Source: a virus. Taken from it: a stretch of 37,217 nucleotides of DNA. A program made the translations under genes and the position numbers. Within the stretch, counting starts at the first letter, position 1. Each line of letters opens with the position of its first letter. The notes under the pieces are model-generated. The model made no database searches, was not told the origin of the DNA, and saw only the letters and a list, made by a program, of their open reading frames with translations. The stretch is taken from IMG/VR virus record IMGVR_UViG_3300048833_000713, positions 1 through 37,217 of that record, one strand, 5' to 3'. Of this stretch, positions 2,886-7,235 are shown one piece after another.

Positions 2886-3084
2886 CGCTGCCTTGCTCCA
2901 TGATCTCGCGAGCGTGGAAGGTGTCGACCTTACTGCCGGGCATCTCCTCGCCGGTATCGAGGTCAACGACGGGTGATCCTTCCAAGCACTCGGCATGGCA
3001 AGCGCCCATCTCTATATCCGAGGCGCAGAGATCGTCAGGCTGCAAAGGCTTGTCGCAGATCGGGCAACGCAGGATGTCAGTCAT
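2878..3084 (-). CDS. Small Cys-rich (zinc-binding-like) phage protein
   Basis: A 68-residue protein starting MTDILRCPICDKPLQPDDLC and continuing with HAEC. The spacing CPIC...C...HxxC suggests one zinc-binding knuckle. Its start overlaps the reverse transcriptase stop as ATGA (3081-3084), so it is co-translated with the DGR genes. No role in the DGR is known for such a protein; it may be an ordinary operon passenger. Confidence 0.72.
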   Translation of the reverse strand: MTDILRCPICDKPLQPDDLCASDIEMGACHAECLEGSPVVDLDTGEEMPGSKVDTFHAREIMEQGSDG

Positions 3085-4082
3085 CGTTTTGATCCTTCCG
3101 TGAGAATTCCGCCCATGCTGCGGACGAGGTTTCGACTGTCGGCCCACCCGGCGTGGCCAAGCCATGAGGCAAGAAAGCGCTGCAGGTGGTCGTGATCTCC
3201 GGCAGCGCGGTAGGCGCGGATCTTCCGGCGCGCCCGCACCACGCTGTCACGGCGCAGAAGCTTGTGAGTTGGCCAGATGCGATAGCCAACAAAATTCACG
3301 CCTCGACCGACCGGCTGGATGCTCCACTTGGAGAATCGCAAGCCAAGACTGTCACGCGAAAGGTCCTCAATGGACTGGCGGACCTTGCGCAGGTGCTCGA
3401 CCGAATTGCCGAGGACAACGATGTCATCCATGTAGCGATACCAAAACCGCTCACCGATCGTTTGCTGCAAATGCCTGTCGACGACGCCGCCGTAGATGTT
3501 GGCAAATATCTGCGACGTCAGGCTGCCGATCGGCAGGCCGATCCCGCTGCGTGGCAGCATGGACTCCAGAAGCAAGGATGTTGCGCGACACGAGATCTTT
3601 GCGTCTATCAGCCGCCACAGCGCACCTCGCTCGATCGAGTAGAAGTAGCGCGAGAAGTCTGTCTTCAGGGCATAAAGGGCTTGTCCGTCGAGAGAGAGTC
3701 TCCGCAGATCAGATTGCAGCGCTGTAGCTGCGGCGTGGGTTCCTTTGCCGGTTCGGCAGGCAAAAGTCCGCGGCAAAAGCGTTGCTTCGAAGATCGGGCC
3801 AATGACTGCGCAGACGGCGTGCTGAGCCACGCGATCCTCAAACGGAAGCGCTGAGATCAGCCTCTCCTTGGGGTCGTAGATCCTGAATTCTTGCGCGGCG
3901 CCTGGTCGATAGGTTCCGTCGCGCATGGTGCTCGCGAGATCCTCCAGATTGAGGATAGAGAACTCTTTGAACTCCAGATATCCTGCCGTCAGCCGTTTAC
4001 CGCGCGACGTCAGGCGAAATGCCTGCCGCATATTGGCGTCTGACGTGATGTCGCCGATCAAGTTGCGAAATTTCTTTGCCAT
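3081..4082 (-). CDS. Diversity-generating retroelement reverse transcriptase
   Basis: Makes the mutagenised cDNA of the template repeat, with copying errors at adenines, that then replaces a variable repeat. The 333-residue length is usual for DGR enzymes. Visible RT motifs are KTDFSRYFYSI (residues 140-150, first catalytic Asp at 142), GLPIGSLTSQIFANIYG (182-198), the YMDD box at 217-220 followed by IVVLG, and GVNFVGYRI (261-269). The SQ after GSLT, where group II intron and retroviral enzymes have a different QG-type motif, is characteristic of DGR/retron-like enzymes. The C-terminal SWLGHAGWADS is a thumb-like end. Start 4082 is fixed by GGAGGAAA 4-12 nt upstream. The same frame is open back through the template repeat to 4430, so an N-terminally extended product is formally possible. 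The DGR assignment rests on the adjacent TR and VR pair. Confidence 0.97.
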   Translation of the reverse strand: MAKKFRNLIGDITSDANMRQAFRLTSRGKRLTAGYLEFKEFSILNLEDLASTMRDGTYRPGAAQEFRIYDPKERLISALPFEDRVAQHAVCAVIGPIFEATLLPRTFACRTGKGTHAAATALQSDLRRLSLDGQALYALKTDFSRYFYSIERGALWRLIDAKISCRATSLLLESMLPRSGIGLPIGSLTSQIFANIYGGVVDRHLQQTIGERFWYRYMDDIVVLGNSVEHLRKVRQSIEDLSRDSLGLRFSKWSIQPVGRGVNFVGYRIWPTHKLLRRDSVVRARRKIRAYRAAGDHDHLQRFLASWLGHAGWADSRNLVRSMGGILTEGSKR

Positions 4083-4258
4083 GGGCTTTCCTCCGGATTG
4101 CCGGTCGCGGGCTTCGACAGCATCGTCGCCGCTACTCCCCGCTGTACCGGACCTTGCAGTGTGTTCGCCGAAGCCGGACGGTCGGGCCGACCACCCTGGC
4201 GCTCGTGCGCCGGTGGAATGTGGCCGCCGCTTCCATGGAAGACGGCGCGCCGAAACTG
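4083..4258 (-). ncRNA. DGR spacer RNA between TR and RT
   Basis: 176 nt with no convincing separate gene lie between the end of the TR homology and the RT start. In the Bordetella phage DGR the equivalent downstream spacer is part of the TR RNA and is needed for cDNA priming, so this stretch is the expected 3' part of the template RNA. It includes the self-complementary CTTCCATGGAAG (4231-4242) and GGCGCGCC (4244-4251). Its folding was not computed. The RT frame is open across it. Confidence 0.6.
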
Positions 4259-4381
4259 GGTTGTCGCAGGCGCCACGGGCAGAGATGTTCTCGTTCGAGT
4301 TCTCAGGCCAGTAGTCCAAGTTCGCGTACCGGGAGCCGGCATTGCTGCCGTTCATCCAGGAGCCGCCAAAGATGGAGGGAC
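4259..4381 (-). repeat. DGR template repeat (TR)
   Basis: 123 nt, located 9 nt after the Avd stop and upstream of the RT, matching both VRs end to end. Read on the minus strand it would encode FGGSWMNGSNAGSRYANLDY and so on, with six Asn codons (AAC/AAT), the hallmark of DGR templates since A-to-N changes in AAY codons can yield many residues. It contains 24 adenines on the coding strand; 17 of these differ in VR1 and 11 in VR2, and no other base differs. An adenine-free block of 20 nt (4265-4284) near its 3' end is identical in all three copies and corresponds to the expected mutagenic-homing start region. Unlike both VRs, it is not followed by the GTTTGCGC hairpin. Confidence 0.97.
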
Positions 4382-4390
4382 CAAGCGTCA

Positions 4391-4765
4391 TTACCCCAAC
4401 CGTCCGTTGCTCTTTGTCGACTTGATCCATTGCCCGAGCATCGCACCGGTCTCTGCTAGGTGGCGCAGTGCCACTGCGTGCTGATGCGGCGTGATGAGCC
4501 GGTTCTTTGGGTCGGCCGCAAAGCGCAACCAGAAACGCAGCGTCGCCATATGTGCGTCGGCGGCAAAGAGCCTCGACGCCTGTTTGGATTTCGCTGCCTG
4601 ATACAAGAGGCCGACCTGATCGAATACCAAGCCGACAAGCCGCTCCCGCAAAGCGCCATGGCGCTTTGGGAAAGCCTGCAGGATCGGGTAAAGATAGGTC
4701 ACGACAGCCTCGTATTTTTCAACGATCGCCAGATCCTGCGCATTTACAAACTCATCGCGGATCAT
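4391..4765 (-). CDS. avd: DGR accessory variability determinant (Avd-like)
   Basis: Avd proteins are small basic four-helix-bundle pentamers that bind the DGR RT and template RNA and are needed for homing. This 124-residue protein is all helical in appearance (DLAIVEKYEAVVTYLYPILQ, RERLVGLVFDQVGLLYQAAK, HMATLRFWLRFAADP, HQHAVALRHLAETGAMLGQW), with Lys/Arg-rich ends. Length, order (target, avd, TR, RT) and the WLRF...LITPHQH region fit the family. The identification comes from context and helical pattern rather than a strong motif. Its stop TAA overlaps an ATG that opens the frame running through the TR into the RT. Confidence 0.88.
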   Translation of the reverse strand: MIRDEFVNAQDLAIVEKYEAVVTYLYPILQAFPKRHGALRERLVGLVFDQVGLLYQAAKSKQASRLFAADAHMATLRFWLRFAADPKNRLITPHQHAVALRHLAETGAMLGQWIKSTKSNGRLG

Positions 4766-4791: not shown

Positions 4792-4811
4792 GTTTGCGCT
4801 TCCGCGCAAAC
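4792..4811 (-). promoter_or_regulatory. DGR target hairpin downstream of VR1
   Basis: Perfect inverted repeat GTTTGCGC / GCGCAAAC with a 4-nt TTCC loop, placed 13 nt beyond the 3' end of VR1 and overlapping the target stop codon. The same element sits at the same distance after VR2. In the Bordetella phage DGR a hairpin or cruciform just after the VR promotes target recognition for homing; here the conserved position and sequence at both targets and the absence at the TR support that role. There is no U-run, so it is not a simple terminator. Confidence 0.88.
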
Positions 4812-5692
4812 TATGCAGGTGTCAGGTGGCCGCAGGCGCCACGGGCAGAGATGCTCACGTACGAGCCCCCAGGCCAGAAGCCCAAGAACGCGTACCGGGA
4901 GCCGGCATCGCCGCCGTCCAGCCAGGAGCCGCCAAAGACGGAGGGACGCGGATCATCCGGATCGCCGTCCGTACCCCAGATCCACAGATTGCCTGTGGCC
5001 TGCATCAGGCCCGCGCGGCTGGTACGCTCTGCATCGAGGCCGGTAGTTACGGGATCGCGGCGCGTGGCCGTCTTCTCAGTCACGCCGTAGGCTGCAGCCC
5101 TGAACTCATCATAGGTCATCATACGCTTGCCATGCGCAGACAAGATTGAATCGGCCGTCTTGAAATCCAGAAGATCGAGCGAAGCGCCGTCAGCGATCTC
5201 CGCACCATGTCGGCTTGTGCCTTGCGCCTTATGGTCCTTTCCGAGCAGATAGATATCGACCCAAAGACGAACGTCACCGTCTTCCACCAAGGTCATTCCG
5301 CGCGGATCTGCGCAGGAGGGCCGGAATTCGAGATCCCAGAAGGAGAAGGGATTGACCGCCGGCACTTTGCTGCCACCGTTGCGACCCTCCGCATTGCCGC
5401 CTGGTGCATAGTGGAAGCCGGCAAAACCGTCCCCGAGCAGAGGATTGGACTCGGCACGCTGGACTACAGGCTTCCCATCGGCGCCGAGGCTTACGGAATA
5501 GTCGCAGCCGGCTTCGAGATCTCCGGTGTGAAGTTCCGTGTCCTCGGTGAAGATCGCGACGTGACTTTCCGTATAGACGCCTGCGCCGGCGCGAACAGCC
5601 AGCTTACCGTCGAGAAGCATCAGGATTGGCGCCGGCGGTGTCATGCGATCAATGCGAATTGCAGCATGCATTGCTTTTGCAGTCTCTGTCAT
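4811..5692 (-). CDS. DGR variable protein 1 (C-type lectin/FGE-like fold)
   Basis: A 293-residue target whose last 42 residues (249-290) are encoded by VR1. Residues 20-90 form a small beta-rich domain. FHYAPGGN at 93-100, FWDLEFRPSCADPRGMTLV (118-136), VDIYLLG and HGKRMMTYDEFRAAAYG begin the formylglycine-enzyme-like C-type lectin domain, which ends GGSWLDGGDAGSRYAFLGFW...ISARGAC. The W-x-W-G motif of this fold is seen as LWIWG (236-240). The protein probably binds a ligand that varies between clones; the ligand is unknown. It lacks the long N-terminal part of its paralogue at 35937. The start at 5692 has AAGGA 9-13 nt upstream. It ends 45 nt before avd and belongs to the early operon. Confidence 0.95.
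   Translation of the reverse strand: MTETAKAMHAAIRIDRMTPPAPILMLLDGKLAVRAGAGVYTESHVAIFTEDTELHTGDLEAGCDYSVSLGADGKPVVQRAESNPLLGDGFAGFHYAPGGNAEGRNGGSKVPAVNPFSFWDLEFRPSCADPRGMTLVEDGDVRLWVDIYLLGKDHKAQGTSRHGAEIADGASLDLLDFKTADSILSAHGKRMMTYDEFRAAAYGVTEKTATRRDPVTTGLDAERTSRAGLMQATGNLWIWGTDGDPDDPRPSVFGGSWLDGGDAGSRYAFLGFWPGGSYVSISARGACGHLTPA
4825..4947 (-). repeat. DGR variable repeat 1 (VR1)
   Basis: Aligned base by base with the TR at an offset of 566. It differs at 17 of 123 positions, and every difference is at a TR adenine on the coding strand (T on the plus strand). Changed codons include Met to Leu, several Asn to Asp/Phe/Gly/Tyr/Ser, Tyr to Phe and Glu to Gly/Val. Homology to the TR stops abruptly at both ends, while homology to VR2 continues into the rest of the paralogous gene. 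Confidence 0.97.
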
Positions 5693-5711
5693 GGTCGTAG
5701 TCCTTGATGTT

Positions 5712-5720
5712 GGGGGGGGG
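5712..5720. repeat. G9 homopolymer between the two DGR targets
   Basis: Nine consecutive G on the plus strand (C9 in the transcript) lie in the short gap between target 2 and target 1, about 20 nt upstream of the target 1 start. Tracts of this length are prone to slippage. It is intergenic, so any effect would be on spacing or translation initiation rather than on reading frame. Confidence 0.7.
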
Positions 5721-5725
5721 TGTGA

Positions 5726-5747
5726 GGTTTGCGCTTCCGCGCAAACC
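5726..5747 (-). promoter_or_regulatory. DGR target hairpin downstream of VR2
   Basis: Inverted repeat with the same arms and TTCC loop as the VR1 hairpin, extended to 9 bp by an outer G-C pair. It is at the same offset from the VR end as at target 1. The gene's stop codon lies between VR2 and the hairpin. See the VR1 hairpin for the expected role. Confidence 0.88.
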
Positions 5748-5754
5748 GATCAGG

Positions 5755-6651
5755 TTACAGGTGGTCGCAGGCGCCACGGGCAGAGACGTGCCCGTTCGAG
5801 TGCCCAGGCCAGCAGACCAAGTGCGCGTACCGGGAGCCGGCACTGCTGCCGTTCAGCCAGGAGCCGCCAAAGATGGAGGGACGCGGATCATCCGGGTGTC
5901 CATCCGTACCCCACTGCCACATAGTGCCGGTGACATCGAAGAGACCCACTTGGCTAATGAAGCGTTGCGCATCGTCAGTCATCTCGCCGCAGCGCTTGGG
6001 TTCGTCCGAGCGCGAGCAGCGTTCCTTGATGCCGTAGGCGGCGGCGAAGAACTCTTCCGCCTTCAGCAGGCGCTTGCCGTGGCTGGCGTAAATGGCCGAC
6101 GCCGTGTGAAAATCGAGGTTTAGGGCTTTGCCTTCTTCATCGGCGGCCTGCGGCAGATCCCGGCCGTCAGCGATGGTTGCACTAAAGCTGGAGGTACCGC
6201 GTTCGCGGTGTTCGGTTCCGAGCAGATAGATGTCGACCCAGATGCGACGTCCGGACGCCGTCACCAGTGTCATTCCACGCGGATCAGGGCATGCGGGGCG
6301 GAAGTCGAGATCCCATATGGAATTAGAGTTGATGGCTGGCGTTGGGTCGCCGCCTTCGGTGCCCTTGGCGTTACCGCCGGGCGCGTAGTGAAAGCCCGCG
6401 ACGGCGCCCGCCGAGATTGGGTTTCCTTCAGCTTCTGCAATGATCCATTCCGAGTGGTCTTTATCGTCGACAAGTAGGCAGTAGTCCCGACCGGCCGTCA
6501 TGAGCTCAGTGGAAAACTCACCGGCGCGCGGAGTGACAGACCTTCCGTCCTTTTCGAAAAGAACGCCCTGGCTGATGGCAATACAGCCCTGATCAGTCAC
6601 CCCAAGGACGGGTGTAGACTGATCTTCTTTGATAATTCGAATGCTGTTCAT
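5755..6651 (-). CDS. DGR variable protein 2 (C-type lectin/FGE-like fold)
   Basis: A 298-residue paralogue of the target encoded directly downstream. It shares AGFHYAPGGN, SIWDLDFRPACPDPRGMTLV, VDIYLLG, HGKRLLKAEEFFAAAYGIKE and MWQWG, and ends in the VR2-encoded segment (residues 257-298) with GGSWLNGSSAGSRYAHLVCW...VSARGACDHL. The N-terminal domain is diverged (MNSIRIIKEDQSTPVLGVTD), so this is an old duplication or a separate acquisition rather than a recent copy. The start at 6651 overlaps the upstream stop as ATGA; the longer frame to 6708 only reads through the upstream gene. It is the first DGR gene in the operon. Confidence 0.95.
   Translation of the reverse strand: MNSIRIIKEDQSTPVLGVTDQGCIAISQGVLFEKDGRSVTPRAGEFSTELMTAGRDYCLLVDDKDHSEWIIAEAEGNPISAGAVAGFHYAPGGNAKGTEGGDPTPAINSNSIWDLDFRPACPDPRGMTLVTASGRRIWVDIYLLGTEHRERGTSSFSATIADGRDLPQAADEEGKALNLDFHTASAIYASHGKRLLKAEEFFAAAYGIKERCSRSDEPKRCGEMTDDAQRFISQVGLFDVTGTMWQWGTDGHPDDPRPSIFGGSWLNGSSAGSRYAHLVCWPGHSNGHVSARGACDHL
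5760..5882 (-). repeat. DGR variable repeat 2 (VR2)
   Basis: Aligned with the TR at an offset of 1501. It differs at 11 of 123 positions, all at TR adenines on the coding strand, to C, G or T. It differs from VR1 at most of the changed sites, so the two VRs were diversified independently. Residues altered include Asn to Ser/His, Asp to Val, Tyr to Cys and Glu to Gly. Confidence 0.97.
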
Positions 6652-7235
6652 GCTCGGCTCCTTTGGTTGGAAGGGTTGTTCTTCTGCCAGGCCTGAAAAT
6701 CGGCCCATAGGTTTTTCCAGCGCTTTGCGGCCTCCGGGCTGGCATCGAGTTCGCTGCGGCTCTTCACGTTGAGCATTGTGCGAACGCGGCTTCGGATTCT
6801 CTCAAGGTCGGAAATATCTGCGCCGTGCATATCTCTGAGGAAGTGCTGGAACTGACTGCTTCTGCAGCAGTCGTCGCACCACTGAGATACCGGCTTGCTT
6901 TTCGTCTTGCCCGGAACAGGGTCGCCCTTCAGACTCCGGATCTCTTCATCCTGTCGCTTGGCCAGATCCTTCACGTACCGAAGCGCCGAGAGCGCTGCCT
7001 TCAGCATCTGAGGCGCCCGGATGACGAACTCTCTGTCCGAGTAGCTAATGTCTTCAGTCAGCAGCAGAATCGGACGTGCGTCTAATCCTGCGTCGCCGAT
7101 AACCATTATCTCCGTCCGACCATCCTCGAAGTTTCGAAAACTCTGCCAGCCTGCGGACATCAGAGGCTCAAGCTCCGCAGCCTTCTGCAGAAGCATCTTT
7201 TCTTCATTGGTAGGTTTGGGAGTGGAGAGCGTCAT
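6648..7235 (-). CDS. Hypothetical phage protein (195 aa)
   Basis: Starts MTLSTPKPTNEEKMLLQKAAELEP and contains a beta-rich middle (FEDGRTEIMVIGDAG, DREFVIRAPQMLKAAL) and a Cys pair region (WCDDCCRSSQFQHFLRD). The C-terminal third is helical and basic with Trp residues (RWKNLWADFQAWQKNN). I do not recognise the family. It is coupled by ATGA overlaps to the clamp gene before it (7232-7235) and the DGR target after it. Confidence 0.75.
   Translation of the reverse strand: MTLSTPKPTNEEKMLLQKAAELEPLMSAGWQSFRNFEDGRTEIMVIGDAGLDARPILLLTEDISYSDREFVIRAPQMLKAALSALRYVKDLAKRQDEEIRSLKGDPVPGKTKSKPVSQWCDDCCRSSQFQHFLRDMHGADISDLERIRSRVRTMLNVKSRSELDASPEAAKRWKNLWADFQAWQKNNPSNQRSRA

Follow-up and report, generated by a model that had tools for sequence, protein, structure and literature searches.

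The window, by which we mean the whole stretch of DNA analysed, is a virus record of 37,217 bases carrying terminase, integrase and replication genes. At its left end lies a diversity-generating retroelement (DGR) on the minus strand; its genes, its template repeat (TR), its VRs and the hairpins that concern us here are all read on that strand. In reading order the cassette consists of target gene 2, a hairpin, target gene 1, another hairpin, avd, the TR, the Phage_DGR RNA and the reverse transcriptase (RT). The features are as follows.

3081-4082, minus strand: DGR reverse transcriptase, 333 aa (PF00078, phrog_1423; 54.5% identity to BPP-1 brt)
4100-4218, minus strand: DGR RNA element in the TR-RT spacer (Rfam Phage_DGR, RF03022; 55 bits, gathering threshold 50)
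4259-4381, minus strand: TR, with no hairpin after it
4391-4765, minus strand: avd, accessory variability determinant, 124 aa (PF22296 bAvd, phrog_3206)
4792-4811, minus strand: hairpin after the VR of target 1, GTTTGCGC-GGAA-GCGCAAAC, 8-bp stem, GRNA-type loop
4812-4824, minus strand: spacer of 13 nt separating the target 1 VR from its hairpin, containing most of the TAG stop codon
4825-4947, minus strand: VR of target 1, with 17 differences from the TR, 17 at TR adenines and 0 elsewhere
4811-5692, minus strand: target gene 1, 293 aa, Mtd-like tail protein with the VR at its C-terminus (PF21916, phrog_11262)
5727-5746, minus strand: hairpin after the VR of target 2, the same 20-mer GTTTGCGC-GGAA-GCGCAAAC, with a stem that reaches 9 bp (5726-5747)
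5747-5759, minus strand: spacer of 13 nt separating the target 2 VR from its hairpin, containing the TAA stop codon
5760-5882, minus strand: VR of target 2, with 11 differences from the TR, 11 at TR adenines and 0 elsewhere
5755-6708, minus strand: target gene 2, a 317-aa ORF whose true start is perhaps internal, Mtd-like tail protein (PF21916, phrog_11262)

This element is a BPP-1-type DGR. TR and VRs differ at TR adenines, a DGR-type RT and Avd are present, and a structured RNA lies between TR and RT. Both target proteins also match the second domain of Mtd. A preliminary description of this DNA had spoken of a third target beyond the window. Within the window no third target exists: an adenine-tolerant scan of the whole record returned just two VRs (scores 109 and 101; the next scored 12). 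A run of nine G on the plus strand (5712-5720; C on the coding strand), a possible slippage tract, lies in the interval from the target-2 hairpin to where target gene 1 starts.

The hairpins stand at a fixed place in both genes. On the plus strand of the window the VRs end at 4825 (target 1) and 5760 (target 2), and each hairpin begins 13 nt past the VR-terminal CCACC. The preliminary description had called the hairpins at 4792-4811 and 5727-5746 identical, equally spaced and set in diverged flanks, and these points are borne out: both 20-mers are found exactly there, each 13 nt from its VR, and the 13-nt spacers and the sequence past the hairpin differ between the two targets. The 20-mer has no further copy in the 37,217-base record even at three mismatches; dinucleotide shuffling, repeated 100 times, gave 0.01 matches on average and never two. 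G-C pairs make up five of the eight stem pairs, with GCGC proximal to the loop. Folded as single-stranded DNA, the hairpins of targets 1 and 2 have energies of -9.9 and -11.5 kcal/mol (z about -4.7 and -4.9). A search for 4-nt-loop hairpins with at least six perfect pairs found none from -60 to +150 around the TR, in agreement with the earlier statement that the TR lacks one. The exact 20-mer had no match in IMG/VR, in a search set from which the record itself is possibly absent.

Hairpins of this kind are known from the Bordetella phage BPP-1. There, mutations showed that a hairpin downstream of the VR is needed for efficient homing; the structure of the stem matters and its sequence does not, and both the size and the sequence of the loop matter (Guo et al. 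2011, PMC3240598). The same paper describes phage DGR hairpins as having 7-10 bp stems and sense-strand GRNA loops, 4-34 bp from the VR. The window hairpins fit this type, with stems of 8 and 9 bp, a 4-nt GGAA loop on the coding strand, a GC-rich composition and a distance of 13 nt. In BPP-1 itself (AY029185, our locus L243) we find an 8-bp stem with a GAAA loop, 13 nt past CCACC. The two elements thus share stem length, a 4-nt sense-strand GRNA loop and spacing; in both, the hairpin lies beside the stop codon of an Mtd-type target gene and Avd is present, and the RTs are 54.5% identical. They differ in the sequence of the stem, in the loop (GAAA in BPP-1, GGAA in the window) and in the number of target genes, of which BPP-1 has one and the window two with identical hairpins.

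Other parallels exist. The archaeal DUSEL4 DGR also has an inverted repeat after the VR with a G...A loop; as described in PMC4372165, however, its loops are of three bases (GRA) and its hairpin lies inside the target gene. Group IIC introns, discussed in PMC3240598, are retroelements that likewise target sequence beside a stem-loop, but their stems are terminators with poly-U tails, and loop sequence carries little weight.

Do relatives of the window element carry the hairpin? Searches with the RT gave 80 viral loci, 25 genome loci, at least 80 loci by profile (overlapping), and sets of 60 and 1. Including the window, this makes at least 241 loci, sampled by RT similarity to the window and not exhaustively, and TR/VR pairs were found in 224. 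Their 288 VR 3' flanks were reduced to 173 by removing flanks at least 90% identical. A sense-strand hairpin rule was passed by 138 of these 173 VR flanks. Random windows passed it 171 times in 5,000, and TR flanks 10 times in 137, about twice the random rate. The same 173 VR flanks read on the other strand gave three passes. Most of the flanks without a hairpin call (35 of the 173 failed the rule) belong to a distant gut-type clade, some members of which have hairpins about 44-46 nt from the VR, while in others none was found within 130 nt. In the gut-type loci L200, L204, L240, L208, L211 and L212 the hairpins lie 44-46 nt or farther after the VR, some with TACG loops.

The preliminary description proposed looking at other targets of the same TR and at homologous DGRs, and in both places the hairpin is found. 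Among 35 elements with several targets, 69 of 71 targets pass the fixed rule. The two misses have a hairpin by eye: one lies at the edge of the search window (L138), and the other has tandem G·A pairs and a bulge (L050). A close parallel is the DGR of Rhizobiales bacterium AFS050986 (L098), whose RT is 80% identical to that of the window. It has a hairpin at all three of its targets, two of which match the window 20-mer letter for letter; the third carries GTTCGCGC-GAAA-GCGCGAAC. We also note two loci with unusual layouts. L158 (=L054; 7762 and 2490) has its second target on the downstream side of the RT, and stem and loop there are those of the first; L095 (222-346) has a second target some 6 kb upstream of its cassette, still with a hairpin.

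A filter for perfect stems missed many relatives, and reading the flanks revealed irregular pairs in the stems. We therefore adopted a strand-neutral score for 4-nt-loop hairpins. At a score of at least 4.4 it found hairpins in 134 of the 173 flanks; five without a G..A loop were dropped before the counts that follow, leaving 129. Their loops are GAAA (41), GACA (34), GGAA (28), GATA (12), GGCA (7), GCAA (3), GGTA (3) and GCCA (1). In 125 of the 129 the second loop base is a purine. Since 57 of the 129 have a pyrimidine as third base, the loops are not of the GNRA type. An anchor like GACCACC was matched upstream of 96 hairpins, with a spacer of 13 nt in 72 of them; the other 33 of the 129 had no anchor match.

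The stems covary. Over 90 distinct 20-mers, pairs 3-8 are Watson-Crick in 90% of cells, compared with 47% when the arms are shuffled and a maximum of 54% over 500 shuffles. The pairs next to the loop are nearly fixed as 5'-GC-loop-GC (pair 1 is C-G in 132 of 134 hairpins, pair 2 G-C in 121 of 134).

On every feature that sequence can test, then, the window hairpins are supported as the same kind of element as the BPP-1 retrohoming target hairpin. Taken as a whole, the best explanation is that they are cis-acting target marks of a BPP-1-type DGR, to which we give a probability of roughly 0.88. What the sequences offer here is the presence of the hairpin, its spacing, its covariation, strand-biased irregular pairs and concerted evolution; from these we infer that the window element homes. 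The earlier suggestion that the hairpins are under selection for target recognition, as in the Bordetella phage DGR, is supported by the relatives and by the BPP-1 layout. One qualification is that the two window copies need not be identical.

On which strand does the hairpin fold? The window's own hairpins show no strand preference by fold energy: the other strand gives -9.6 kcal/mol where the coding strand gives -9.9 at target 1, and both strands give -11.5 at target 2. Because these perfect stems fold equally on both strands, the argument rests on the relatives. Of the 134 hairpins, 104 are perfect at pairs 1-8. Irregular pairs in the rest number 33 (14 G·A, 13 G·T, 5 G·G and a single C·T). 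The C·T pair is in L211, a hairpin that we judged off-target (its loop is ATCG and it lies inside VR-like sequence); the count of coding-strand types to mirror types (A·C, C·T, C·C) is 32:1 with it and 32:0 without. Among the 129 hairpins with G..A loops it is 32:0, or 24:0 by distinct stems with L211 left out. At the first pair outside the stem of the same set the count is 46 sense to 58 antisense, with 22 neutral (Fisher p 8e-10 against the in-stem pairs), so the bias is confined to the stem. By DNA energies, all 44 of the listed irregular hairpins, in which a few loci appear twice, are more stable on the coding strand, by a mean of 1.8 kcal/mol.

One class of irregularity recurs. Tandem 5'-GA/5'-GA pairs occur at stem positions 3-4 in several lineages, and at 4-5 in L242; 16 flanks bear the tandem G·A label. 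This class was recognised after the flanks had been seen and was for that reason excluded from the blind 32:0 count, apart from three tandem G·A hairpins (L100, L104, L184) that passed the blind filter and are counted. On a quick RT tree of 140 rows, in which a long-branch warning applies and a label change may be a loss, the label for single irregular pairs changes at least 11 times and that for tandem G·A at least 8 times on well-supported branches. Hairpins with G..A loops and tandem G·A pairs are very stable in DNA. In L163 the stem from 2817 apparently has two tandem G·A blocks, at pairs 3-4 and 7-8. The only clear reversed case among the 173 flanks is L079, where a perfect 8-bp hairpin from 1828, after the VR, has an inverted loop (TTTC in sense).

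Could the bias reflect mutation, for example loss of C on an exposed coding strand, and not what the fold tolerates? C to T is a common mutation on single-stranded DNA, and G is kept in all 32 irregular pairs. But 14 of the 32 are G·A and 5 more are G·G, which are not products of C to T; the pair just outside the stem is unbiased; and one place in the stem repeatedly shows tandem G·A, in both arms. We regard mutation bias as an improbable source of the pattern.

The symmetric alternative is a cruciform, recognised in double-stranded DNA with both strands folded. BPP-1 hairpins are cut on both strands in supercoiled plasmid DNA, and BPP-1 homing in phage is independent of target orientation (PMC3240598); these results speak for a cruciform and against the coding-strand reading. 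Guo et al. left undecided which form is recognised, the literature's name, hairpin/cruciform, allows for two folded strands, and the window stems are equally stable on both. Yet a symmetric structure is hard to square with irregular pairs that stand at 32:0 inside the stem and 46:58 just outside it, with the three passes in 173 flanks read on the other strand, and with a loop consensus that is strand-specific. A cruciform seems unlikely to us, if somewhat less so than mutation bias. We infer that the working structure is a hairpin in the coding strand. A search of open-licence papers gave nothing on point about the concerted evolution of DGR hairpins, their noncanonical pairs or the choice of strand.

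A bias toward the coding strand fits single-stranded DNA, but it could in principle also fit RNA: hairpins with a role in the target-gene transcripts, be it as terminators or as stem-loops at the 3' end of the mRNA, would be expected to show it too. The target 1 hairpin fits a loose terminator pattern, and at least five T occur in the next 8 nt at 10 of 129 hairpins, compared with 1 of 129 measured 20 nt further on. That leaves 119 of the 129 with no T-rich tail, and terminator-like sites in the region are at chance (3 found, 3.6 expected). The loop, with its frequent pyrimidine at the third base and its purine at the second, is not the GNRA type, and for BPP-1 it has been demonstrated that the hairpin belongs to the homing target (PMC3240598). 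For the window hairpins we also considered an intrinsic terminator and rejected it, as their tails, CTTCTTCATG and CTCACACCCC, hold no T run after the stem. A role in RNA is, in our judgement, decidedly improbable, more so than either mutation bias or a cruciform.

Why, then, are the two copies in the window identical? The simplest answer would be that the target genes were duplicated recently and that no selection is involved. The targets are indeed paralogues, and similarity within an element is expected after duplication as it is after conversion. A recent duplication, however, predicts similar flanks around the hairpins, and the flanks just beyond them are not alike. The two window targets share only 45% of residues before the VR. 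When the VR is removed, target proteins fall into two clades across elements (FastTree, midpoint root), which makes the duplication older than most elements; relative to most related elements, the window has the two clades in swapped order. Stems that covary over 90 distinct 20-mers also argue against it, and we consider a recent duplication very improbable.

We compared targets within and between elements in 18 of the 35 multi-target elements, namely the ones whose targets belong to the two old clades, and additionally L013, where the second target did not have the length needed for the tree; the middle target of L098 and the near-copy L006 were left out. At the outer four stem pairs identity is 73.6% within an element, compared with 44.0% between elements and 44.6% at orthologous positions, and the permutation p for the within-element excess is at its floor, 5e-5. 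The spacers follow the same pattern (62.8% within an element, 49.3% otherwise). Past the hairpin there is no within-element excess (29.8% and 28.5%, p 0.29), and in the coding sequence the order is reversed, orthologues having 49% identity and paralogues 35%. With the set restricted to 13 or 12 less related elements the stem and spacer excess persists; that of the loop ceases to be significant (p 0.12, 0.19).

VR, spacer and hairpin thus evolve together within an element, and the effect ends just past the hairpin. If one target converts the other and the stem, being constrained, then changes slowly, the likeness within elements is explained; co-adaptation of the stem with the homing machinery may be another source. 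The identity of the window copies in part reflects such concerted evolution. A requirement for identical stems was ruled out: several elements use different stems at their targets, so identity is not a requirement. Putting strand and history together, we think it probable, with less confidence than we have in the target mark itself, that the mark is a single-stranded DNA hairpin of the coding strand and not a cruciform, that its natural stems tolerate pairs that fit into the coding strand alone (G·T, G·A, G·G and sheared-type tandem G·A), and that VR, spacer and hairpin form a module evolving in concert across paralogous targets.

How might such a mark work? In the proposed mechanism the TR transcript would be copied by RT and Avd into adenine-mutated cDNA, which would replace the VR. 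A hairpin 13 nt past the VR would make a gene a good acceptor, and the TR, which has none, would for that reason remain the donor. The working form would be the coding-strand hairpin. The cDNA would anneal to this strand, which is also the lagging-strand template for a gene oriented with the replication fork; a hairpin there may keep the strand open or serve as a binding site for the homing machinery. This is the strand invoked in work with a BPP-1 DGR reconstituted in E. coli, where homing was favoured when the coding strand was the lagging-strand template and was best when the target ran with replication, the strand complementary to the cDNA then being the lagging-strand template (PMC12875486). 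The authors of that study propose that the open state lasts longer because of the stem-loop, and report that deleting the repeat causes a severe yet incomplete loss of repair. They describe the entry of cDNA into the target as still unknown and proposed, in 2026, a single-stranded lagging-strand template.

The target hairpin is already a known feature of DGRs; what is added here is the case for one strand and for concerted evolution. The irregular pairs found in nature bear on the question of hairpin versus cruciform that Guo et al. left (PMC3240598), and they favour one strand, the same as the single-stranded lagging-strand template proposed in PMC12875486. True DGR targets would be easier to find, and target sites easier to build, with the help of the GC-GRNA-GC core, the 13-nt spacing and the strand rule.
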